Positions 3,360 through 50,477 of a DNA stretch of 54,080 nucleotides are shown one piece after another. The DNA is from Gammaproteobacteria bacterium (GTDB lineage: Bacteria > Pseudomonadota > Gammaproteobacteria > Ga0077536), in assembly GCA_016874535.1 (NCBI GenBank), contig VGUA01000011.1, positions 1-54,080 of the forward strand. Reading direction: 5' to 3'. Numbering within the stretch: position 1 is the stretch's first letter; each line of letters begins with the position of its first letter. The position numbers were made by a program, and so were the translations under genes. Under the pieces are notes generated by a model. It had not been told where the DNA came from and did not search any database. It saw only the letters and a program-made list of their open reading frames with translations.

Positions 3360-3408
3360 CAATTACGGGTTACCGTGAACCTTCTCCGGGACGCTTGCGA
3401 GGATGCCC

Positions 3409-5649
3409 ATGCCGACTTTCCCCCATGTGCACGAGACGAAGCCTATCGTCTGCTCTGGATGCACCACCCAGTGCGGCCTGGTGGCGCACGTGCGGGATGG
3501 CCGGGTCACCGAGGTCAGGGGCGATCACGACCATCCGCTCTCTCGCGGTTATATCTGCCCCAAGGGCAAGGACGCGCCGTCACTGGCTGCAGATCCCCGC
3601 AGACTGCTGAAGCCGCTCAGGCGCAGCGGGCCACGCGGCGCAGGAAAATGGGAGGAAATCGGCTGGAATGAGGCGCTGGATGAGATAGCAGCGCGGATTT
3701 CTTCCATCACAACACAGCATGGGCGCCGCGCCCTCGCCTACAGCTATGGCACTTTCCGTGGCGGCGACTGGGGCATCGGCGAGCGTTTCATGAATCGCTT
3801 CGGCAGCGCCAACAGCTGCGGGCAGGACAAGATTTGTTACGGCCCCCTGGCGCTCGCCGAAACCCTGACCTATGGCGTGGGCCCGACGGTATTCACGCCT
3901 CCCGTGGCTGGAGTCACGCAGTGCATCGTGGTCTGGGGCATGCGCCCCTCGGCCTCTGCCCCGTTGTTATGGCGCGCGATTCGCGAGGCCCAGCGGGCCG
4001 GCGCACGGCTCATCGTGATCGATCCGCAACAGACGGACGAGGCACGCCGTGCCGACCACTGGCTGCAGGTCCGCCCCGGCGGCGACACTGCGCTCGCCGT
4101 GGCCCTGCTCAAATTGCTCGTCGGGTCACCCCATCTCGATCCGGATTTCATCGCCCGCGAGACCACGGGCTTCGAGGCCCTGAAAGCGCATCTGGCGGCG
4201 CAGGACCTGTCGGCATTGGTCACCGCCTGCGGTGTTCCGGCAGATGATCTCTCGCGGCTGGCGACGATGCTCGGAACCATTCGTCCTGCCGTCATCCACG
4301 CCGGCAACGGTCTTTGCCAGGGCGGACGCTCGGCCCTGCAGCTGGGGCGTGCCATTGCCTGCCTAATCGGACTTACCGGCAATGCCGGTGTGCCGGGTGG
4401 TCATGCATTGGGTGGACCACCACGTGACCTGCGCGCGAATGGAGAAATGTTTGATGCTGATCTGTTGCCGGAGGAAGCGAGGCGGGAGCGTTTGGGTGCC
4501 GAACATCTGCCGTTTCTCGGCTCAGGCTACACAGAGCTCGACGAGGTGCTGGCGCAGCACTGGCATGGGCGTCGCCACCTGCTGTCGTGGATAGCTACTG
4601 CACACGAACCCACGCTGTGGCGCGCAATCGAAACGGGAGATCCTTATCCCGTGCGTGCGCTTGTGGTCCAGAACCACAATCCGCTCGGCGCTAATCCGGA
4701 TGCCGATGCAGTCGCCCGCGCCCTTGCCAGCGAGCAGCTCGAGCTGTCAGTCGTGCATGATTTGTTCATGACGCCCACCGCGCATCTGGCGGACTTTGTG
4801 CTGCCCGCCGCGCATTGGCTGGAGAAACCCTGGTTTTCCTTCGGCATAGGCTTTGTTGGCGCCTTCGGTGATTTTGTGGGTGCTGCGGAGGCTGCGGTGC
4901 CACCGCCCGGCGAGGCTCGCTCCGATTACGCATTTTGGCGCGATCTCGGACGCCGGCTCGGTCAGGCCGATGCCTGGCCTGACCAAGAACAGCAGTTCTA
5001 TGACTCCTGCGTGGCGGAGGCCGGACTGACGTTTTCCGCACTCAGTGGCAGAACGGGACCGGTGTTCGGTGCGGAAGCCCGGCGTCCGGGTAATGAATCC
5101 GAAAGCGTGTCGGCCAAGGCCTATGCCACGCGGGATGGCCGAATTGCGCTTTACTCGGATTGGCTGCACGAGAGGGCACAGCCGCCGTTGCCCACGCCAC
5201 TCGAGTCAGCACTCGACGGTGTCGCTGATGCGTGGCCGCATGTTCTCACCACCGGTGGGCGCCAAATCGAAGCGTTCCATCAGAATGCGCAGCACATGGC
5301 GCGTTTCCGCCGCAAGAAACCTCACCCGGTTGCCAGACTCTCGCTGGACACTGCGCGTGAGCTAGGCATAGCGGCGGGAGACTGGATAGAAATCGAAACC
5401 CCCGTTGGGCGCGTACGGCAGTGCGCGTTGCCGGTCGCCAGTCTGGCCCCGGGCGTCGTCGAGGCCGATCGCTGGTGGTATCCGGAGGGCATCGACGATG
5501 CGGCCGATCCCTTCGGCCTGCGGGCGACCAATATCAACTTCTGCACAAGCGGCGCGCCTGAGGACTGCGACCCCGTCATGGGCACCTGGTTGATGCGCGG
5601 GATCCCGTGCCGGGTCACACGCTTGGAAAATGGGCCGGGAAATGAGTGA
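3409..5649 (+). CDS. Molybdopterin-dependent oxidoreductase (DMSO reductase superfamily)
   Basis: This is a roughly 746-residue bis-MGD oxidoreductase. Counting from the first in-frame ATG at 3403, cysteines 17, 20, 24 and 52 (CSGCTTQC then YICPKG) form the N-terminal [4Fe-4S] site. The molybdopterin-binding core follows, including LIGLTGNAGVPGG, and the C-terminal dinucleotide-binding domain begins near residue 600 (VLTTGGRQIEAFH). I prefer the ATG at 3409 because GCGAGG ends 6 nt before it. No twin-arginine signal is present, so it is probably cytoplasmic. No electron-transfer or membrane subunit gene adjoins it, so partner and substrate are unknown. Formate dehydrogenase-like, thiosulfate/polysulfide and other family members are possible. 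There is no in-frame UGA. The stop codon lies inside a repeat element. Confidence 0.85.
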   Translation: MPTFPHVHETKPIVCSGCTTQCGLVAHVRDGRVTEVRGDHDHPLSRGYICPKGKDAPSLAADPRRLLKPLRRSGPRGAGKWEEIGWNEALDEIAARISSITTQHGRRALAYSYGTFRGGDWGIGERFMNRFGSANSCGQDKICYGPLALAETLTYGVGPTVFTPPVAGVTQCIVVWGMRPSASAPLLWRAIREAQRAGARLIVIDPQQTDEARRADHWLQVRPGGDTALAVALLKLLVGSPHLDPDFIARETTGFEALKAHLAAQDLSALVTACGVPADDLSRLATMLGTIRPAVIHAGNGLCQGGRSALQLGRAIACLIGLTGNAGVPGGHALGGPPRDLRANGEMFDADLLPEEARRERLGAEHLPFLGSGYTELDEVLAQHWHGRRHLLSWIATAHEPTLWRAIETGDPYPVRALVVQNHNPLGANPDADAVARALASEQLELSVVHDLFMTPTAHLADFVLPAAHWLEKPWFSFGIGFVGAFGDFVGAAEAAVPPPGEARSDYAFWRDLGRRLGQADAWPDQEQQFYDSCVAEAGLTFSALSGRTGPVFGAEARRPGNESESVSAKAYATRDGRIALYSDWLHERAQPPLPTPLESALDGVADAWPHVLTTGGRQIEAFHQNAQHMARFRRKKPHPVARLSLDTARELGIAAGDWIEIETPVGRVRQCALPVASLAPGVVEADRWWYPEGIDDAADPFGLRATNINFCTSGAPEDCDPVMGTWLMRGIPCRVTRLENGPGNE

Positions 5650-5739: not shown

Positions 5740-6324
5740 CTACCCGAGTTCGGGCCTGCGATTCATTTCCAAATACTGGGCGGCGGGCCTGAGCCCGACA
5801 GCCTGGGCGATCCGGTTGGCGCCAGCATAAAAAGCTGCCGTATTGATGATGCTCCAGATGGTTTCATCGTCGAAGCCGGCATCACGTAGCTGTTGTCTAT
5901 CCGCATCTTCGATAGCCTCGGCGTCCAGCAGTACCTTGAGCACGAAATCCAGCATCGCGCGGTGGCGTGGAGTAAGCTCCGCATGTCGATAGTTGCGCGA
6001 CAAATATTCTGTAAAGAGCGCATCGCCGCTCAGCTTGCGCATCACGGCACCATGGTGGGCTGTGCAATAGACACAACCATTGGTGGCCGCCGCGACGAGC
6101 GCGATCATCTCAACCTCAAAATGACTCAAGCCAGAATCAGGCCGAAGCAATTCCATGTAAGGCAGCATGAAAGCGCGCAGGCGGCGATTATCTGTCGCAA
6201 AAAGACGCACAAAATGCGGTGTAAAGCCGTATTTCTTCTCCACACCCAGCACCAGAGCCGTCATCTCGGCATCTAGATTATCGCGCTCGCGTAGATCAAG
6301 CCCGCAAATGTCAGTCAGAGCCAT
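5740..6324 (-). CDS. AhpD-like peroxidase-related protein (Cys form)
   Basis: This alpha-helical protein of about 194 residues belongs to the carboxymuconolactone decarboxylase/AhpD superfamily. The redox motif CVYCTAHH (Cys84, Cys87, His90-91) is the CxxCxxxH centre that reduces peroxides or a peroxiredoxin partner. The frame extends upstream to a TTG at 6339 and an ATG at 6333. I chose the ATG at 6324 because GGGGAUG is spaced correctly before it. It is flanked by repeat elements and has no operon partners. It is a useful in-window contrast to the selenocysteine homologue at 43468-44046, which has CHYU in the same place. Confidence 0.83.
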   Translation of the reverse strand: MALTDICGLDLRERDNLDAEMTALVLGVEKKYGFTPHFVRLFATDNRRLRAFMLPYMELLRPDSGLSHFEVEMIALVAAATNGCVYCTAHHGAVMRKLSGDALFTEYLSRNYRHAELTPRHRAMLDFVLKVLLDAEAIEDADRQQLRDAGFDDETIWSIINTAAFYAGANRIAQAVGLRPAAQYLEMNRRPELG

Positions 6325-6394
6325 GTGTTTCATCCCCAAAAGTTTGCGCGTCCGCCCGGCTTGTTATCGATCTGACTTCGGCATCGTTTAATGA

Positions 6395-30196: not shown

Positions 30197-31375
30197 TCAG
30201 CTTACCGGTGCGAGATCCGGCTCCAGATAGAACGGAGCGTCGCCCAGAGCATCTACCGCCGCCCAGAAGCCGGGCCCGGCATTGAGCTCACCGATGCTGC
30301 CCGGGTCGAGCATCATGGCCTGGCGGCGATAGTTCCATTTCTCCGGACACAGCTGTACGGCGGCATCAAAGTGATGCTTGGCGCGCGCCAGCGCTCCTTG
30401 CGCAAACAGATGCCGGCCAAGCCGGACATGGGTTGCCGCGAGAACGTCGTTACGGGCCGGGCCACGCAAGCGCTTGCGCACTTCTTCAGGCGGCAGCGCA
30501 TAAGGGCTAGCCGTGCCCCGCCGCACCCAGTCCCGCAGTGCATTCACGTACGCGTCGCGCAGGGCCATGCCCCGCTGCACATCCGGCTCCGGGATTTCGA
30601 AGGTCTCCCGGTTCATCACCTTCACCATGTCGGCAGTGCCTGCCGATTCCGGCGGGCGCACGATCCGGCCCTGTTCGTCGATCCAGACGCCCTGCGGCAC
30701 GTTGACCATGCCATAGAGATCCGCCACCACGTGGTTCTCATCAATGAGACAGGGATAGGTGGGCGGGGCCTGTTTCGCCCACAGCTCAGGCGACCAGCCC
30801 ATGAGGCGCGCCAGCATCTCCGGACGTTCCTGGCAATCGGCCGCGCGAATCTTGGCCTCTACCGCTGCCCGGCCGCCCGTATCGAGCGCCACCGCGATGA
30901 TTTCCAGTCCCTGATTCTTGAGTTCTGCATACACTGCCTGCCACACGGACAGATCAAAGCTGCAGCCTCAGTAGGAGCCCCAGGAATAGAGAAAGACCTT
31001 CTTGCCGCGATAGTCGGACAGCGAATGCAGCTTGCCGTCGAGATCGGGCAGGGTGAAGTCCGGGGCTTCCAGCGAAAACAGCGCATCGCGCCGCGTATTC
31101 ACGCTGGCGCCGTAGGCACGGAGGTTGCCGGCCGCCTCGTGTAGCTCGGGTTGCCCCTGATGAGCGGCGAAGGCGGACAGATCCACCCGGCCTTCCGCAT
31201 CCACCCAGTCGGCCTGGGTGCGGACGCAGGCGTCGCCCTGACACAGCCCCACGTCTTCGAGCTTCCAGCCGGTGGCGCTCGCGAGGTCGGTGGGCGACAG
31301 CCACACATGGCCTCCCCGCTCGAGGGCTCCCGGCACGACCGTCGTCCGGTCGCCGTAGAGTATGGTCACACTCAT
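30197..31375 (-). CDS. Thioredoxin/peroxiredoxin-fold selenoprotein (UGA = Sec136)
   Basis: Two abutting same-frame open frames, 31375-30971 and 30967-30197, join across TGA at 30970-30968 into one 392-residue protein. The Trx/AhpC-TSA domain starts near residue 105 ([21 protein letters not shown]) and the redox site reads [16 protein letters not shown]. From family knowledge, cysteine relatives have a Cys where U136 stands, followed by Gly-Cys. The fold continues without interruption after the UGA ([13 protein letters not shown]), and a TPR-like C-terminal segment follows ([20 protein letters not shown]). CAGGAG precedes the ATG at 31375. selA, selB and tRNA-Sec are 12-17 kb away, and a hairpin follows the UGA at SECIS spacing. 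The true stop is also UGA (30199-30197). It is probably a thiol-disulfide or peroxide reductase. Confidence 0.88.
30938..30970 (-). promoter_or_regulatory. Candidate SECIS hairpin after the Sec UGA
   Basis: In the mRNA, UGA is followed by 15 nt and then CUGUC-CGUGU-GGCAG (coordinates 30952 to 30938), a 5-bp stem with a 5-nt loop containing GU. An outer CUGCA/UGCAG pairing (3-7 and 39-43 nt after UGA) could extend it. Loop distance (about 21 nt) fits bacterial SECIS elements, which bind SelB. The loop is less canonical than that of the AhpD-like gene. Confidence 0.6.
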
Positions 31376-31445
31376 GGTGAACTCCTGATTCATGAATCCA
31401 CCGGCAGTGTACCCATGAAATCAGGTGGCGCCACAGCTTTCCCGG

Positions 31446-43467: not shown

Positions 43468-44046
43468 TCAGCGCCCCGGCAGCACACAGGCGATGGCATC
43501 GCCGATGTACTCACGGGTCCGCGCATCGACGTCCGTGCCGCCCGTGGCATGCACGCGATTCACCAGCGCCGACAGGCCCACGGTGAGTGCGAGCTCCATG
43601 ATCTGGGCCTCCGAGAATTTCTCCTGCAGGGCCTTGAACATGGCGTCGTCCACCTTGTTCTCGCGGGTGAGGACCTCGGAATAGCGGAGCACCAGCCGAT
43701 CAGTGTCATCGAAACTGGTACACGCCTCCGGCTCATGCAGCATTGCCATCTCTTCCTTCGTCAAGCCGACACTCAGACCGAGCATCACATGCGTGGGGAT
43801 TCAGTAATGGCAGGAGTTGACCTGGGATGCGCGCAGATAGGCCAGTTCCCGGTGACGGGGTGACAGCGCGCAGGTGGGTCCGTAAAGCGCTTCCACAATC
43901 ATGGCAAAGCCTTCCAGGGCCTTGGGATTGTTCGCGAACATCTTCATCACATTGAAGATGGGGAAACCGAGGGTTTCAAAACGCTTGTACACGGTCTGCA
44001 CTTCAGTTGGTGCATCCGCGGGTTCAATGAGAGGCAGTCTCGCCAT
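43468..44046 (-). CDS. AhpD-like selenoprotein (CxxU, UGA = Sec82)
   Basis: Two same-frame open frames join across TGA at 43803-43801 to give a 192-residue carboxymuconolactone decarboxylase/AhpD-fold protein of normal length. The catalytic motif reads VNSCHYUIPTH, that is, Cys79-x-x-Sec82-x3-His86, where ordinary members have CxxCxxxH; the in-window homologue at 5740-6324 has CVYCTAHH. AAGGAG lies 8 nt before the ATG at 44046. The gene is divergent from selA with 83 bp between starts, and a GGUCU-loop hairpin follows the UGA. AhpD-like selenoproteins are a known family, so readthrough is the natural interpretation. It is predicted to be a peroxidase or disulfide reductase. Confidence 0.92.
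43770..43803 (-). promoter_or_regulatory. SECIS hairpin with GGUCU loop after the Sec UGA
   Basis: In the mRNA, UGCUC-GGUCU-GAGUG forms a 5-bp stem (C-G, U-A, C-G closing pairs, then two G-U pairs) with the loop GGUCU, 22-26 nt after UGA (coordinates 43784 to 43770). GGUCU is the loop I recall from the E. coli fdhF SECIS, where it sits about 19-23 nt after UGA. It should recruit SelB encoded next door. Confidence 0.75.
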
Positions 44047-44089
44047 GGGTCTCTCCTTCAAGGGGCGCCTGCTGGCGCGCCTTCGAGCC

Positions 44090-44095
44090 TATAAT
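44090..44095 (+). promoter_or_regulatory. Consensus -10 hexamer upstream of selA
   Basis: TATAAT is an exact sigma-70 -10 box 35 nt before the selA ATG, in the 83-bp divergent region shared with the AhpD-like selenoprotein. No good -35 is seen at the expected distance, so an activator or extended contact may be needed. Confidence 0.45.
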
Positions 44096-44129
44096 GGCCG
44101 CCTGTCCCTCACAAGCCGGAATCCGTGTG

Positions 44130-45578
44130 ATGACCGAGCCCGTTCAGCCCCGGAAGCCAGACTCGACGAACGCCCAGAGCGGACCGCGTCCAAAGCCACC
44201 GAGCATCGATGCCCTGCTCAAGGCGCCGGCCTGTCAGGACTTGCGTGAACGCCACGGCCATGTGCCGCTGGTAGCCGCGTTGCGTGAGGCCAGCGCCGAA
44301 CTGCGCGCACGGCAGGAGCCGCTTTCACCGGAGGCGGTCACAGCGTGGATTCTCACCAGCGCAAGTGAGCGCCTGCACGCGGCGGCGCAATCCAGCCTGC
44401 GTCCGGTGTTCAACCTGAGTGGTACGGTGCTCCATACCAATCTCGGACGCGCCCCACTCGCCATCCCCGCACTGGAGGCGATCGGACGGGTCGCCGGCAC
44501 TGCGAGCAATCTGGAATACGACCTCGCCACCGGTCGCCGTGGCGACCGGGATGTGCACGTGGAGGCGCTGATCTGCCGGCTCACCGGTGCCGAAGCGGCG
44601 ACTGTGGTGAATAACAATGCCGCCGCCGTGATGGCGGTGCTCGCGGCGCTCGCGCGTCGGCGGGAAGTGATCGTGTCGCGCAGCGAGCTGGTGGAGATTG
44701 GGGGTTCCTTCCGGGTGCCGGATGTGATGGCGACTGCCGGTGCGAAGTTGCGCGAGGTGGGCACCACCAATCGTGTGCATCTGCGGGATTTTGCGACGGC
44801 TATTGGTCCTACCACTGCGCTCATGATGAAGATTCATCCGAGCAATTACCGCATCGAGGGCTTCACCGCCTCGGTGGCCGAGACGGAGCTGGCGGCATTG
44901 GCACGCGAGCACGGCATTCCTTTCGTGAACGATCTCGGCAGCGGCACCCTCGTCGATTTTCGCGAGCTCGGTTTGCCCCATGAGCCGACCGTGCAGGAAG
45001 CTCTCGTGGCAGGTACGGATCTCGTCACTTTCAGTGGTGACAAACTGCTGGGAGGGCCGCAGGCCGGTTTCATTGCCGGACGGGCTGATCTCGTGCGGCG
45101 GATCAAGAAACATCCCATCGTGCGCGCCCTGCGCGTGGACAAACTGATCCTCGCCGCGCTGGAAGCCACGCTCAAGCTCTACGCGGATCCCGAGCGCGCA
45201 CGCACCGGAATTCCGGCGCTGCGTCTCCTGTCCCGCCCACTCCCCTCGCTGGAAGCGGCTGCCGAGCGGCTCCTGCCACCCGTGCAACTTGCCATGGCAG
45301 GAATTGCCGAAGTTGGCATCGCGGCGTGTCGCAGTCAGATCGGTAGTGGCGCACTGCCGGTCGATCTGCTGCCGAGCTGTGCGCTGGTACTCACGCCGAG
45401 GCGTCGGGGCGGCAAGGCTGTGGAGCACCTTGCGGCAAGCCTGCGGGCGTTGCCGCGGCCGGTGATCGGGCGTCTCCATCAAGGCGCGCTCCATCTCGAT
45501 CTGCGTTGCCTGGAAGAAGTTGACGAGCGTGTGTTTGTGGACCAGCTCGCTTTGTTGTCGAAGGCCGCCTCGCCATGA
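44130..45578 (+). CDS. selA: L-seryl-tRNA(Sec) selenium transferase
   Basis: SelA converts Ser-tRNA-Sec to Sec-tRNA-Sec with selenophosphate on a PLP cofactor. The 482-residue sequence has NLSGTVLHTNLGRAPL, the tRNA/active-site region NLEYDLATGRRGDRD, NNNAAAV, and the PLP lysine Lys305 in FSGDKLLGGPQAG. The ATG at 44130 is chosen because it starts the recognisable N-terminal domain; 36 nt of open frame precede it. It overlaps selB as ATGA. It is diverged by one short promoter region from a selenoprotein gene. Confidence 0.97.
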   Translation: MTEPVQPRKPDSTNAQSGPRPKPPSIDALLKAPACQDLRERHGHVPLVAALREASAELRARQEPLSPEAVTAWILTSASERLHAAAQSSLRPVFNLSGTVLHTNLGRAPLAIPALEAIGRVAGTASNLEYDLATGRRGDRDVHVEALICRLTGAEAATVVNNNAAAVMAVLAALARRREVIVSRSELVEIGGSFRVPDVMATAGAKLREVGTTNRVHLRDFATAIGPTTALMMKIHPSNYRIEGFTASVAETELAALAREHGIPFVNDLGSGTLVDFRELGLPHEPTVQEALVAGTDLVTFSGDKLLGGPQAGFIAGRADLVRRIKKHPIVRALRVDKLILAALEATLKLYADPERARTGIPALRLLSRPLPSLEAAAERLLPPVQLAMAGIAEVGIAACRSQIGSGALPVDLLPSCALVLTPRRRGGKAVEHLAASLRALPRPVIGRLHQGALHLDLRCLEEVDERVFVDQLALLSKAASP

Positions 45579-47509
45579 TTGTGGCCACGGCCGGCCACGT
45601 CGATCATGGCAAGACCACACTCATCCGTGCCCTGACCGGAGTGGAGACCGACCGCCTGCCCGAAGAGCAGGCCCGCGGCATGACCATCGACCTCGGCTTT
45701 GCCTATCTGGAATTGCCGGGCAGCGCGGAAGTCATCGGTTTCGTGGATGTGCCGGGGCATGAGCGCTTCGTGCGCAACATGCTGGCCGGGGTGGCCGGCA
45801 TAGACTTCGCCCTGCTGGTGATTGCCGCAGACGATGGCCCCATGCCGCAGACGCAAGAGCATCTCGCCATCCTGGAACTCCTCGGCATCACACGTGGTGC
45901 CGTGGCCCTGACCAAGGTCGACCGCGTGGATGAGGAACGCGTGCACGAAGTGACGGCTGAAGTGGAGGCCTTACTGGCCGCCACACCGCTGGCAGGCAGC
46001 CCGATCATTCCGGTGGCGGCCCCCGCGGGGCGCGGCGTGGAGACCTTAAAAAAAAGTCTCCTCTTTGCGCAGGCGAATCGCACACGCGGCAAGACAGAGG
46101 CCCGGGGCCATTTTCGTCTGGCCATCGACCGGCGGTTCATTCTGGAAGGTGCGGGACGCGTGGTCACGGGCACGGTCTACTCCGGGCGCGCGGCACCCGG
46201 CGACGAGCTCTGCATTGCCCCCGCCAATCTCGAAGTGCGGGTGCGCTCGCTGCATGCTCAGAATCGCGCGAGCCTGGAGGCAACGGCCGGCCAGCGTTGC
46301 GGCGTGAATGTGTCTGGTGGCGATCTGCGTCGGCACGAGATCCACCGCGGTGACTGGCTGGTTGCCCCTGCGCTCGCCAGCACCTGTACGCGGCTTGGCG
46401 TGCGACTGCGCCTTGCGCGGGACGAGGCGCAGGCTCTCAAGGACGGCACTCCGGTGCATGTGCATCTGGGTGCGGCCGACCTCGGTGGGCGCGTTGCATT
46501 GCTGGAAGGCGCGACACTCGCACCGGGCGAGACGATGTTCGCGCAGTTGCAGCTGGACGCTCCGGCCCTCGCCGTGCAGGGCGATCGTTTCGTGCTGCGT
46601 GACCAATCCGCTCGTCGCACTCTGGCCGGTGGCGAAGTGCTGGAAGCGGTGCCATGGCCGGGCAAGCTCTCGCGGGCGCGGCGCCTCGAGTTGTTGCAAG
46701 CCTTGGCCTTGGAAGAGCCCATGGCGCGCCTTGCTGCGTTGATGGAATCCCAACCGGAAGGCGTGAGTCCGGCATGGTTTGCCCGCAATACGAATCTGTT
46801 GCCGGAAGATCTGGCGCGCCTCACCGCCCACCCGCAATGCCGGGAACTCGAACTCGTGCGCGATGGGGTGCGATTGCTGGGCGCGACACGCCTGGAGGCA
46901 TTGCGCACGGCAATCCTGCACACCGTGCGCGCCCACCATCTTGCCGACCCTGCCCAGACAGGATTGCCGGAGCCACTGTTGGCACGTACCTTGGCTGCTC
47001 GCGAACCCCCCGAGCTGCTGCGCGCTGTCACCGAGCAGCTGGTGCGCGAGGGCGGGATCGCCCGGCGTGCAGGCCAGCTCTGCGATCCGGCTCACACGCC
47101 GGTGCTACCCCCCGCGGAAGAGCGTCTGCTGGAGCATGTGGCAGCTGAACTCAGGCGCCACGGGCGGCAGGCCCCCGCGCTGCACGACATGCCGGAACCC
47201 ATGCAGATTACTGTCGAGGTGCTCAAGCCCTTCATGGAGCGCATGGCGAAGCTCGGTCACCTGCACCAGGTGGGCCGCTATCGCTACTACCTGCCGGAAA
47301 CCCTGAAGGAATTGGCCCATTGTGCCGAAACACTCTCGGAGAGCTCTGATAGCGCCTGCTTCACTGCCGTTCAGTACAAGGAATACTGCGGTATCGGGCG
47401 CAACGTGACGATCGAGCTCCTCGAATATTTTGACCGTGTGGGCCTGACCCGAAGGCAGGGCCAGACGCGCCGAATGCGGCAGCGGGTGAGGCAGGTTCTG
47501 GGGGCTTGA
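45575..47509 (+). CDS. selB: Selenocysteine-specific elongation factor
   Basis: This 644-residue GTPase delivers Sec-tRNA-Sec to UGA codons marked by a SECIS. G1 is GHVDHGKTT at 7-15, G3 DVPGHERF, G4 TKVDR. Domains II-III follow to about 340, then the C-terminal winged-helix array that binds the SECIS hairpin (for example ITVEVLKPFMERMAKLGHLHQVG and ITIELLEYFDR-like end). The ATG overlaps the selA stop as ATGA. Length is normal for bacterial SelB with four winged helices. Confidence 0.97.
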   Translation: MIVATAGHVDHGKTTLIRALTGVETDRLPEEQARGMTIDLGFAYLELPGSAEVIGFVDVPGHERFVRNMLAGVAGIDFALLVIAADDGPMPQTQEHLAILELLGITRGAVALTKVDRVDEERVHEVTAEVEALLAATPLAGSPIIPVAAPAGRGVETLKKSLLFAQANRTRGKTEARGHFRLAIDRRFILEGAGRVVTGTVYSGRAAPGDELCIAPANLEVRVRSLHAQNRASLEATAGQRCGVNVSGGDLRRHEIHRGDWLVAPALASTCTRLGVRLRLARDEAQALKDGTPVHVHLGAADLGGRVALLEGATLAPGETMFAQLQLDAPALAVQGDRFVLRDQSARRTLAGGEVLEAVPWPGKLSRARRLELLQALALEEPMARLAALMESQPEGVSPAWFARNTNLLPEDLARLTAHPQCRELELVRDGVRLLGATRLEALRTAILHTVRAHHLADPAQTGLPEPLLARTLAAREPPELLRAVTEQLVREGGIARRAGQLCDPAHTPVLPPAEERLLEHVAAELRRHGRQAPALHDMPEPMQITVEVLKPFMERMAKLGHLHQVGRYRYYLPETLKELAHCAETLSESSDSACFTAVQYKEYCGIGRNVTIELLEYFDRVGLTRRQGQTRRMRQRVRQVLGA

Positions 47510-47700: not shown

Positions 47701-48129
47701 GCCACGCCACGCCGCAAGGCTTTTCGCTGGAACGCTAGTACGCCTGCTACCGTCCTTGACGGGGCGCCATCACAGGGCAGTGGCGAGCGTCGTGCTATAA
47801 GGCATGGTCGTGCACCAATGGTTGGCAAAGCCGATGCTGCGCATTCTGCGCAAGTGTTGGCGGACATCGGGAGAGATCATCGAACGCACGGTTCATCCCG
47901 CTCACTTGCCTCATCCGGTGCTCGACAGACCGGACGTTCCTGAATCGCAAACGTCGGAGCCAGAAGGCGGGTATCGAAATGGTTGGCCAAATGCAGCCTC
48001 GCCAAGGTTCTGACCGGTAGAGCAGGCATCGGGAATACGAGCTGGCACTGGCCGTGTACTCCCCCACCGTCCCAGCAAGAATGGAGCCCGTCTAACAGTG
48101 CCGCGCTGACTTGCGCTAGCATCAACCCC
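47701..48129. other. Non-coding stretch before selC
   Basis: About 430 bp with no recognisable gene on either strand. It starts with a tandem CGCCACGC(CACGC) run at about 47692-47712 and leads to the tRNA gene. A weak -10-like TAGCAT (48117-48122) ends 7 nt before the tRNA. Confidence 0.45.
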
Positions 48130-48225
48130 GGAAGAGCGACATCTCCCGGTGGGGTGCCCGGACTTCAAATCCGGTGAAGCCTGCAGATGCAGGCTTGGCA
48201 GGTTCAACTCCTGCCTCTTCCGCCA
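48130..48225 (+). tRNA. selC: tRNA-Sec (anticodon TCA)
   Basis: The 96-nt gene, with encoded CCA, folds as a tRNA-Sec. The acceptor GGAAGAG pairs with CTCTTCC, with discriminator G. The D-stem is an unusually long 6 bp (CATCTC/GGGGTG). The anticodon arm CCGGA-CTTCAAA-TCCGG places TCA in the loop. A long variable arm of 8 bp has a 4-nt loop (AAGCCTGC-AGAT-GCAGGCTT). The T-arm is GCAGG-TTCAACT-CCTGC. UGA decoding, the long D-stem and the big variable arm are decisive. I count 7+5 bp in the acceptor/T branch instead of the usual 8+5. Confidence 0.96.
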
Positions 48226-48331: not shown

Positions 48332-48943
48332 TCAGGTCCACGCATAACTGGAGTTATTCGGGCTGTGTAACTGTCGGTACTCGACGGGGGTGAGCCCATC
48401 GAGGGCGTTGTGAGGGATCTCCTCGTTGTAGTCGTTCAGCCACCGCTCGGTGTGCTCCCGGACCTCGTTGAGGTTGCGGAACACGTACAGATCAAGCACG
48501 CCCTTTCGGTAGCTGCCATTAAAACGTTCGATGAAGCCGTTTTGCATCGGACGGCCTGGCTGGATGAACTCCAGCTTCACACCCTTGGCGTCTGCCCATT
48601 CAGCCAGGGCAATCGCGACAAACTCAGGACCGTTATCGAGCCGCAGCCTTTCCGGATAGCCTCGCCAGGCCGCGATGCGGTCCAGCGTGCGGATAACCCG
48701 GCTGGCCGGTAGATTCAGATCGACCTCGATTGCCAAGGCCTCACGGTTATAGTCGTCGACCACATTGAAGGTGCGGAAGCGGCGACCGTCCCAGAGCGCG
48801 TCAGACATGAAGTCGGCAGACCAACAGGCGTTGACTCGCTCGCCCGGAGCCAGCGACTGGGGATGACGGGACGGTAAGCGCCTTTTCCCCCGCCGGCGTT
48901 GGTTCAGCCGCAACTCGCAGTACACCCGATGCACCCGTTGGCA
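48332..48943 (-). pseudogene. IS3-family transposase OrfB, 5'-truncated
   Basis: This is the C-terminal ~200 residues of an IS3-group (IS407/IS2-like) DDE transposase. The first Asp is in CWSADFMSD, the second in RLDNGPEF, and the Glu in GFIERFNGSYR, 35 residues after the second Asp, so the catalytic triad is intact. The N-terminal part and OrfA are missing. The sequence begins abruptly at CQRVHRVYCELRLN at about 48943, where it joins an acyl-CoA dehydrogenase fragment. The terminal inverted repeats were not identified. Confidence 0.85.
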
Positions 48944-49446
48944 GTCCGTCGCGCCGTTGTCGCGAAAGGCGCTGTGCCCGCGGCCGCCGCGCCCGCGCCG
49001 CCCTCCGAAAAAGGCTGCGCATAGACCTTGCCCTCGCCGATGATGCGTGCGTAATGCCCCGCCCGGCGGCGTGCATGGTCTGCCCGTTCCGGCGGGGTCA
49101 TGTCCAGCGCATCGGCCAAAGCCCCGGACCACAGGCAGGAGCAGACATGCATGTTGAAGGTGAGGGCCGTCGCGCCGCAGTAACGGCCGAGTTCGGCGGC
49201 AGCCAGCGAATACGCGCGAAAATCCGCGCCCAGGCCACCATATTCCACGGGCACGCAGATACCGAGCAGGCCTTCCGCGCGCAGGTCGACATAGTTCTCC
49301 ACCGGGAATCGCGCCTCGCGATCGATGGTGGCCGCCCGCGCGGCAAACCGTTCGCTGCCCAGACGGCGGGCCAGTGCGGTCAGTTCTTCTTCCTGTGGCG
49401 TGAGACGAAAGGCGCGTGCATCAAAAATCGGGGCATCGAGGCTCAT
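48944..49446 (-). pseudogene. Acyl-CoA dehydrogenase, 3'-truncated by the IS fragment
   Basis: Residues 1-~165 of an acyl-CoA dehydrogenase are present: the N-terminal helical domain and the start of the FAD/substrate strand (LLGICVPVEYGGLGADFRAYSL, then KVYAQPFSEGGAG and GTAPF). The middle beta domain and C-terminal catalytic base are lost at about 48944. The ATG at 49446 overlaps the stop of the NicX-like gene as ATGA, so this was the second gene of an operon. It cannot be active. Confidence 0.85.
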
Positions 49447-50477
49447 GTCAGGCGGCCTTCCTCCACCACCGTCCGGTCGTCGAGCCGGATGGTGCAAGCT
49501 CTGAGCGGCAAGTCGAAATGGCCTTCCGTGAAGCGCCCCGCCACCTCGTTGGCGCCGGTCGAGTACAGGAAATTGCCGGCAAAGGCGCGCAGCTCGGTAC
49601 CGTTGAAATCCCGCTGGTCGTACATCGCGAGCGCCTCGTAGCGCGCGGCCGGATTGAGCCCCCAGCCGACATGCGACACGCCGTAGGCAGCATTGTCACC
49701 CCAGGCCGCGAAGTAGCGTCGCATCAGCTCCGCATCCGTTCCGGAACCCTCGATGCGCGTCACATGATCGTTTTCTATCGTCAATTCCACCCGGGATTCC
49801 AGATAGCGCTTGAAGGTGAGGTTCACATCGCCCACGTCGAGCACCAGGCGACCGTTCACGGCCCCCGGGGCGGGAAAATTGACCACGATGCCCCCCGGCC
49901 AGTGCGCCACCATGCCCGGTTTCGCACACCATCCCCACACGCCACCGTTGCGGGCTTCACGCAAATCTATGCGCAGATCCGTGCCCGCCGCCGAGCTCAC
50001 CTGCATCAGGCTGGCAGCTCGGCAGGCCTTGATGGCTTCGCGTACCACCGCCTCGTCCTCCGGCTTGGGCACCAGTCGCTCCAGTGCTTCCGGGTGTTCA
50101 TTGGACACCATCATCACGCGCGCGCCGCTGGCCAGGATCTCGGGCAGTTGCGGGGCGTGCAGCAGCCCCTCCACGGTGAGATCGATCACCACCTTGCATG
50201 ATTTCAGCGCGGCCAGCGCAGCGATCTGCCCGTTCAGCGCCTGACTGGCGCCGGTGGAGCGCACCGGCACCGGCGCCTGCTGATGAGGCGTCGGAACCAC
50301 CACCTGCGCGGCGGAAATGCCCATATTGCCCAGCGCCAGCCGTGCTAGCTCGAGGTTGAGGGGCCGTGACTGCGTTTCGGCGAGCAGCACCACCTCCTCG
50401 TTGGTGTCGATCTTGCAAAGCTCAAAGACCCGTTGAAAGGCTTTTATCCATTGCGGTTCCAGTCGATCAGTGAACAT
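49443..50477 (-). CDS. NicX / M29-peptidase-fold protein (2,5-dihydroxypyridine dioxygenase-like)
   Basis: This 344-residue protein belongs to the family shared by 2,5-dihydroxypyridine 5,6-dioxygenase (NicX) and M29 aminopeptidases. The likely metal residues are the His in SHVGWGLNPAARY (near 268) and the His-x-Asp pair in EGHFDLPLR (near 321), a pattern matching NicX's two His and Asp. It would cleave a hydroxylated pyridine ring in nicotinate or pyridine breakdown, but an aminopeptidase or other ring opener cannot be excluded. GGAG precedes the ATG. It is co-transcribed with the truncated acyl-CoA dehydrogenase. Confidence 0.7.
   Translation of the reverse strand: MFTDRLEPQWIKAFQRVFELCKIDTNEEVVLLAETQSRPLNLELARLALGNMGISAAQVVVPTPHQQAPVPVRSTGASQALNGQIAALAALKSCKVVIDLTVEGLLHAPQLPEILASGARVMMVSNEHPEALERLVPKPEDEAVVREAIKACRAASLMQVSSAAGTDLRIDLREARNGGVWGWCAKPGMVAHWPGGIVVNFPAPGAVNGRLVLDVGDVNLTFKRYLESRVELTIENDHVTRIEGSGTDAELMRRYFAAWGDNAAYGVSHVGWGLNPAARYEALAMYDQRDFNGTELRAFAGNFLYSTGANEVAGRFTEGHFDLPLRACTIRLDDRTVVEEGRLT

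Follow-up and report, generated by a model that had tools for sequence, protein, structure and literature searches.

Introduction

The locus described here raises the question whether a TGA triplet that interrupts a frame related to ahpD, next to the selA and selB genes, is read as selenocysteine (Sec), and further, what the resulting protein may do and whether the Sec machinery is kept on its account. The whole stretch of DNA that was analysed (54,080 nucleotides, contig VGUA01000011.1) is referred to as the window. A sequence-only reading of the window, made from the letters and the open reading frames, had proposed an AhpD-like selenoprotein as the main Sec client, and its separate claims are taken up where the respective results are given.

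Results and Discussion

The gene and its product

The features of the locus and the other UGA genes of the same genome are listed in Table 1.

Table 1. Features of the ahpD-like locus and further UGA genes of the genome. Positions are those of the window unless a locus and contig are given.
Feature	Position	Strand	Description and basis
ahpD-like selenoprotein gene	43468..44046	-	192 aa with Sec82; Pfam CMD across the TGA, 21 orthologues
In-frame TGA, Sec codon (U82 of C79-H-Y-U82-xxx-H86)	43801..43803	-	same codon TGA in 21/21 orthologues
SECIS hairpin GAUGCUC-GGUCU-GAGUGUC	43768..43786	-	7-bp stem, 5-nt loop; pairing, synonymous minimum, fit to the bacterial SECIS model
AAGGAG ribosome-binding site	44053..44058	-	6 nt 5' of the ATG, read from the sequence
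Divergent intergenic region, ahpD-like gene/selA	44047..44129	.	83 bp, read from the sequence
selA, L-seryl-tRNA(Sec) selenium transferase	44130..45578	+	NCBIfam TIGR00474, 559 bits (cut-off 268)
selB, Sec-specific elongation factor	45575..47509	+	NCBIfam TIGR00475, 420 bits (cut-off 242)
selC, tRNA-Sec	48130..48221	+	Rfam RF01852, 69.5 bits (gathering score 47)
WAxxUGC/ResA-like (peroxiredoxin-like) gene, SYUGCS motif	30197-31393, TGA 30970-30968	-	NF041054 WAxxUGC_long
Peroxiredoxin with TGGU	L106:1426-1956, contig C20		UGA gene of the same genome
AhpD_rel CFYUT	L008:880-1971, contig C56		NF041238, 331 bits; UGA gene of the same genome
SelW CVMU	L167 near 1528, contig C64		UGA gene of the same genome

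The frame of the ahpD-like gene starts with ATG, ends with a TGA at 43470-43468 and contains a single further in-frame TGA, codon 82. Residues 77-86 of the read-through protein are NSC-H-Y-U-IPTH, i.e. N-S-C79-H80-Y81-U82-I-P-T-H86, so that the UGA stands at the second Cys of a CxxCxxxH centre, as the sequence-only reading had stated. The match to PF02627 (Pfam CMD; E 7e-13, residues 43-113) spans the TGA, and so does the match to the AhpD core model TIGR00778 (37.2 bits, cut-off 27.8). The AlphaFold model (pLDDT 92) has the AhpD fold of the carboxymuconolactone decarboxylase (CMD) superfamily, and the protein can indeed be called an otherwise intact member of that fold. On the evidence of the sequence comparisons the gene is confirmed as a genuine AhpD-type selenoprotein gene, in which the UGA is predicted to place Sec in the active centre. 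As a whole, we consider it very probable that the product is an AhpD-fold redox selenoprotein with AhpD-like chemistry, that Sec is inserted at UGA-82 via SelB and the SECIS element, and that the protein is one of several Sec clients.

Conservation and selection

The search for orthologues covered the genus, the family and a sample of relatives; the resulting count of 21 takes in the window's own gene. They were found in 6/6 genomes of the genus and in 15 of the 30 other genomes of the family, i.e. within one family of Gammaproteobacteria, and are about 53-88% identical. It is conspicuous that all 21 have a TGA at exactly the position of codon 82, and neither a Cys codon at the Sec position nor a split gene nor decay was seen among them. 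The alignment is nearly without gaps over the Sec site, and E67, Y70-Q75, C79, H80, Y81 and I83-H86 are invariant. The dN/dS values of seven close pairs (0.02-0.14 before the TGA, 0.07-0.17 after it) indicate that purifying selection acts on both halves of the gene. Independent genes on either side of the stop, or decay of the downstream half in relatives, had been named as outcomes that would speak against a selenoprotein; since the TGA is kept and both halves are under selection in the 21 orthologues, these outcomes do not occur.

Outside the family no orthologue was found in the sampled 369 Gammaproteobacteria and 398 Pseudomonadota genomes. The next profile matches there (E 1e-28 to 1e-22) all lack the TGA and several lack any CxxC, and no relative was seen in viral contigs. 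The closest Cys forms are about 30-34% identical, viz. those of Hahella (NSCHYC-LSAH), G127 (CAYC), G049 (CVYC) and G033 (CSYC). A phylogeny that combines the Sec and the Cys sequences places the Sec members in a single group, weakly supported (85/86), which long branches separate from every other form. Judged from these comparisons, the clade is apparently lineage-specific and Sec-only, and because no Cys orthologue was found, Sec may be essential rather than optional in it. The clade adds a well-supported lineage-specific branch to the AhpD-like selenoproteins.

The SECIS hairpin

Downstream of the UGA the DNA of the orthologues is nearly frozen (GATGCTCGGTCnGAGyGTCGG), and the corresponding hairpin has the family-wide form GAUGCUC-GGUCN-GAGYGUC. 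In the window, positions 43786-43780 pair with 43774-43768, the loop is at 43779-43775, and the distance from the UGA to the loop is 21 nt. The published model of bacterial SECIS elements has a loop of 3-9 nt with N-G-[G/U]-N and an upper stem of 4-16 bp, located 16-37 nt from the UGA, with a minimum free energy of at most -7.5 kcal/mol (PMC13188914). The hairpins of the clade agree with it in loop (GGUCN), stem (7 bp), distance (21 nt) and energy (-10.8 to -13.2 kcal/mol), which bears out the earlier observation of a GGUCU-loop hairpin at the right distance 3' of the UGA.

The conservation is visible at the codon level, too. Within codons +5 to +11 after U, Leu is CTC in 20/20, Gly is GGT in 19/19 and Val is GTC in 20/20 cases, and Ser is only AGT or AGC; elsewhere in the gene the same four amino acids have a high codon diversity. 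Of the 140 codon windows of the gene, the one over the hairpin has the least synonymous diversity, and this collapse is confined to the hairpin, which makes it a clean case of SECIS selection within a coding region. In 19 distinct sequences 100% of the cells of the 7-bp stem are paired, as opposed to 15-52% if the partner strand is slid by 1-3 columns. The changes within the stem are one-sided only (G-U/G-C, U-A/U-G), and as the stem hardly varies otherwise, it gives no proof by covariation, i.e. by compensatory changes. One genome (G015) has AGUC where the others have GGUC. The folding energy in comparison to shuffled sequences is not significant alone (z = 0.03); of the 1508 TGA triplets found in any frame of the window, only one is followed by a hairpin that has a GGTC loop and at least 7 bp in its stem.

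Sec machinery and gene neighbourhood

All of selA, selB, selC and selD are present in the genome. selD lies elsewhere (L144, contig C18), is of the Cys type (CGGCGAK) and has an NAD(P)H dehydrogenase-like (Ndh) domain fused to its N terminus, in which it resembles the Ndh-SelD fusions of the GOS 2008 paper (PMC2398784). The ahpD-like gene is divergent from selA across 83 bp, as had been described, given a selA start at 44130; the start may lie slightly later, and the length of the gap holds for 44130. We infer that this region is a candidate for a common promoter of the two genes. As a separate observation, just downstream of the tRNA-Sec gene an IS3-type integrase frame (48332-49497, minus strand) seems, from the reading of the frames, to abut and truncate an acyl-CoA dehydrogenase gene.

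The ahpD-like gene adjoins selA-selB-selC in 8 genomes (G000-G005, G016, G022) from two genera (g1, g4); it is divergent from selA in seven of these and co-directional in G002. In the other genera with the gene, the flanking DNA that was retrieved, on short contigs in some cases, contains no selA, selB or tRNA-Sec, and selABC are clustered apart from it. The neighbours differ between genera. In genus g3 the ahpD-like gene follows a FadJ-like gene of the same strand at a distance of about 40 bp. It is divergent from an acyl-CoA dehydrogenase gene in G018 and G024, and a luciferase-like monooxygenase gene lies beside it in G014 and in G005, the latter from the same genus as the window. Neither AhpC nor any other operon partner is common to the neighbourhoods examined.

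Comparison with known AhpD-type families

AhpD-like CxxU selenoproteins are already known, and the present clade is a further member. They were first described in 2005 from the Sargasso Sea (PMC1088965), the GOS study of 2008 distinguished 'AhpD-like 1' (COG2128) and 'AhpD-like 2' (pfam02627) (PMC2398784), and a 2026 review gives them as TIGR01926 (PMC13188914). The clade shares with them the AhpD/CMD domain, which extends across the UGA, a conserved Sec in place of the second Cys, a bacterial SECIS just 3' of it and Cys homologues elsewhere that align to the Sec. Unlike them it was seen only in one family of Gammaproteobacteria and has no Cys orthologue in the genomes searched. The comparison with AhpD-like 1 and 2 is based on their published descriptions. 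The protein scores 59.1 bits on TIGR01926 (peroxidase-related enzyme), below its cut-off of 81.8, and is also below the cut-off of every other full-length NCBIfam model that it matches. With NF041238 (AhpD_rel_CFYUT) it has in common the relationship to AhpD and the CxxU motif, but that family is about 357 aa long and only its C-terminal half is matched (32 bits).

As to the canonical AhpD proteins, PA0269 and M. tuberculosis AhpD have the same fold and the same Glu-x11-Cys-x-Tyr/His-Cys-xxx-His relay (PMC3141380). The present protein differs from them by Sec in place of the second Cys, by a longer chain, nearer to that of the SMU.961 and mlr4105 structures, and by the lack of an AhpC neighbour in the neighbourhoods examined. 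The ahpD model TIGR00777 was not among its matches at E values up to 1.

Active centre and possible function

The best PDB matches of the structural model are AhpD/CMD-family structures (TM 0.6-0.8), i.e. Bmp8, SMU.961, 2pfx, mlr4105, pneumococcal AhpD and PA0269. Since the peroxidatic Cys of M. tuberculosis AhpD is the second one, Sec would occupy the position of the nucleophile. The residues E67, C79, Y81, U82 (Sec for Cys) and H86, all of them invariant in the clade, have the spacing of the PA0269 proton relay, which consists of Glu36, Cys48, Tyr50, Cys51 and His55 (PMC3141380).

Based on these similarities the following course may be proposed. When the ribosome arrives at UGA-82, SelB carrying Sec-tRNA(Sec) would bind the hairpin downstream, and Sec would be inserted so that the C79-H-Y-U82-xxx-H86 centre is formed. 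If AhpD and PA0269 are a guide, activation of the selenol of U82 would fall to E67, Y81 and H86; the selenol would then reduce a hydroperoxide or a disulfide and form an Se-S bond with C79, which a cellular thiol reductant could reopen. The insertion of Sec at codon 82 is thus deduced from sequence features, and the reduction of hydroperoxides or disulfides from the known relatives. As no operon partner, AhpC for instance, recurs in the neighbourhoods and the neighbours differ between genera, the peroxidase role is an argument by analogy.

It is quite possible, though not what we would favour, that the Sec protein has a job other than peroxide reduction, either as a thiol-disulfide adaptor or on an organic substrate, for instance in a reaction connected with acyl-CoA oxidation or in a reductive dehalogenation like that of Bmp8. 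The AhpD proteins known to date are weak peroxidases and act as adaptors (PMC3141380), and the FadJ-like, acyl-CoA dehydrogenase and luciferase-like monooxygenase neighbours would suit such a role, but the same neighbours vary across genera. Moreover, in the fold comparison the debrominase Bmp8 (6ohj, E 2e-6; also 6ohi), which is of equal length, ranks first. However, a fold match cannot separate functions, and Bmp8 is a Cys enzyme with 17% identity.

Other UGA genes and the question of the main client

The genome contains at least four further UGA genes of known selenoprotein families, one of them in the window, i.e. at least five with the ahpD-like gene. We note that the others were found by targeted family searches, hence four is a lower bound. 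The WAxxUGC gene scores 294 bits on NF041054, just under the cut-off of 300, and has a SECIS-like hairpin (CTGTC-CGTGT-GGCAG); the peroxiredoxin, AhpD_rel CFYUT and SelW genes have CGUGN-loop hairpins 21-24 nt after the TGA. The five sites thus have a common design: 5-nt loops of the form N-GU-N'-n with complementary N and N', 20-24 nt after the UGA, in stems mostly closed by CUC/GAG. The loop is GGUCU in the ahpD-like gene vs. CGUGn in the other four, and this swap of C-G and G-C among the clients is expected from the published model, in which N1 and N2 are base-paired (PMC13188914). A scan of the window for [C/G]GU[G/C]N hairpins at this spacing gave three matches where 0-3 are expected by chance: the Sec codons of the ahpD-like and WAxxUGC genes and one site at 47913. 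The terminal TGA of the ahpD-like gene is not among them. Conventional annotation would end all five genes at the UGA, and a C/G-GU-G/C-N loop 20-24 nt after a UGA offers a handy criterion by which the remaining selenoproteome of this lineage can be sought. Formate dehydrogenase, the classical Sec client, was also considered; its gene is present and has no in-frame TGA.

It appears improbable in this light that the Sec machinery is retained chiefly for the ahpD-like gene as its main client, which had been the earlier suggestion. A clear tRNA-Sec (at least 59 bits) is found in 32 of the 36 family genomes, and 21 of those 32 have the ahpD-like gene, which is missing from all four genomes without a clear tRNA-Sec. 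This distribution fits a Sec-dependent gene that is lost together with the machinery, and the 21 family genomes with the gene slightly outnumber those in which the two other clients covered by family-wide searches keep their in-frame TGA (WAxxUGC 18, peroxiredoxin 20); its place beside selABC points in the same direction. On the other hand, 11 of the 32 tRNA-Sec genomes, several of them more than 90% complete, are without the gene, no linkage to sel genes was seen in the other genera, and at least four other UGA genes are present in the same genome. The ahpD-like gene is one of several Sec clients in the lineage; of the sequence-only reading, the AhpD-fold Sec protein, the SECIS element and the divergent selA stand, and the main client finds no support.

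An equally doubtful thought is that a Sec-only AhpD clade, whose Cys forms never existed or were wholly lost, serves selenium metabolism itself, e.g. as a redox partner or a selenium-status sensor for SelA/SelD. If true, this would explain the location beside selABC in two genera despite the differing orientation.

Two readings that dispense with Sec are less probable still. UGA suppression occurs in some organisms, and the codon might be decoded as Trp or Cys via suppression or a changed code; we regard this as very improbable, as TGA ends the ahpD-like gene itself and many of its neighbours, the four sel genes are present and a SelB-type hairpin is conserved after the internal TGA. A TGA that really ends translation, or that stems from an error in sequencing, would leave a shortened product of 81 aa or a pseudogene in decay. 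This would agree with the interrupted frame in the standard code and with the downstream half being called as a separate frame (43468-43788), but is scarcely credible given the same codon in 21 orthologues, the missing Cys codon in the clade and the downstream purifying selection with no second-site decay.

Two minor observations concern other AhpD-type genes. Another AhpD-like TGA gene (NCFLU/QCHLU), separate from the clade studied here, occurs in genomes G002 and G005 (L022, L023), and in L022 the TGA is followed by a perfect GCCTTGC-GGTC-GCAAGGC hairpin. The window itself has a second CMD-family gene (5740-6339, minus strand) with an ordinary CVYC centre, which adjoins a molybdopterin oxidoreductase gene (3403-5649) that is itself without a TGA.
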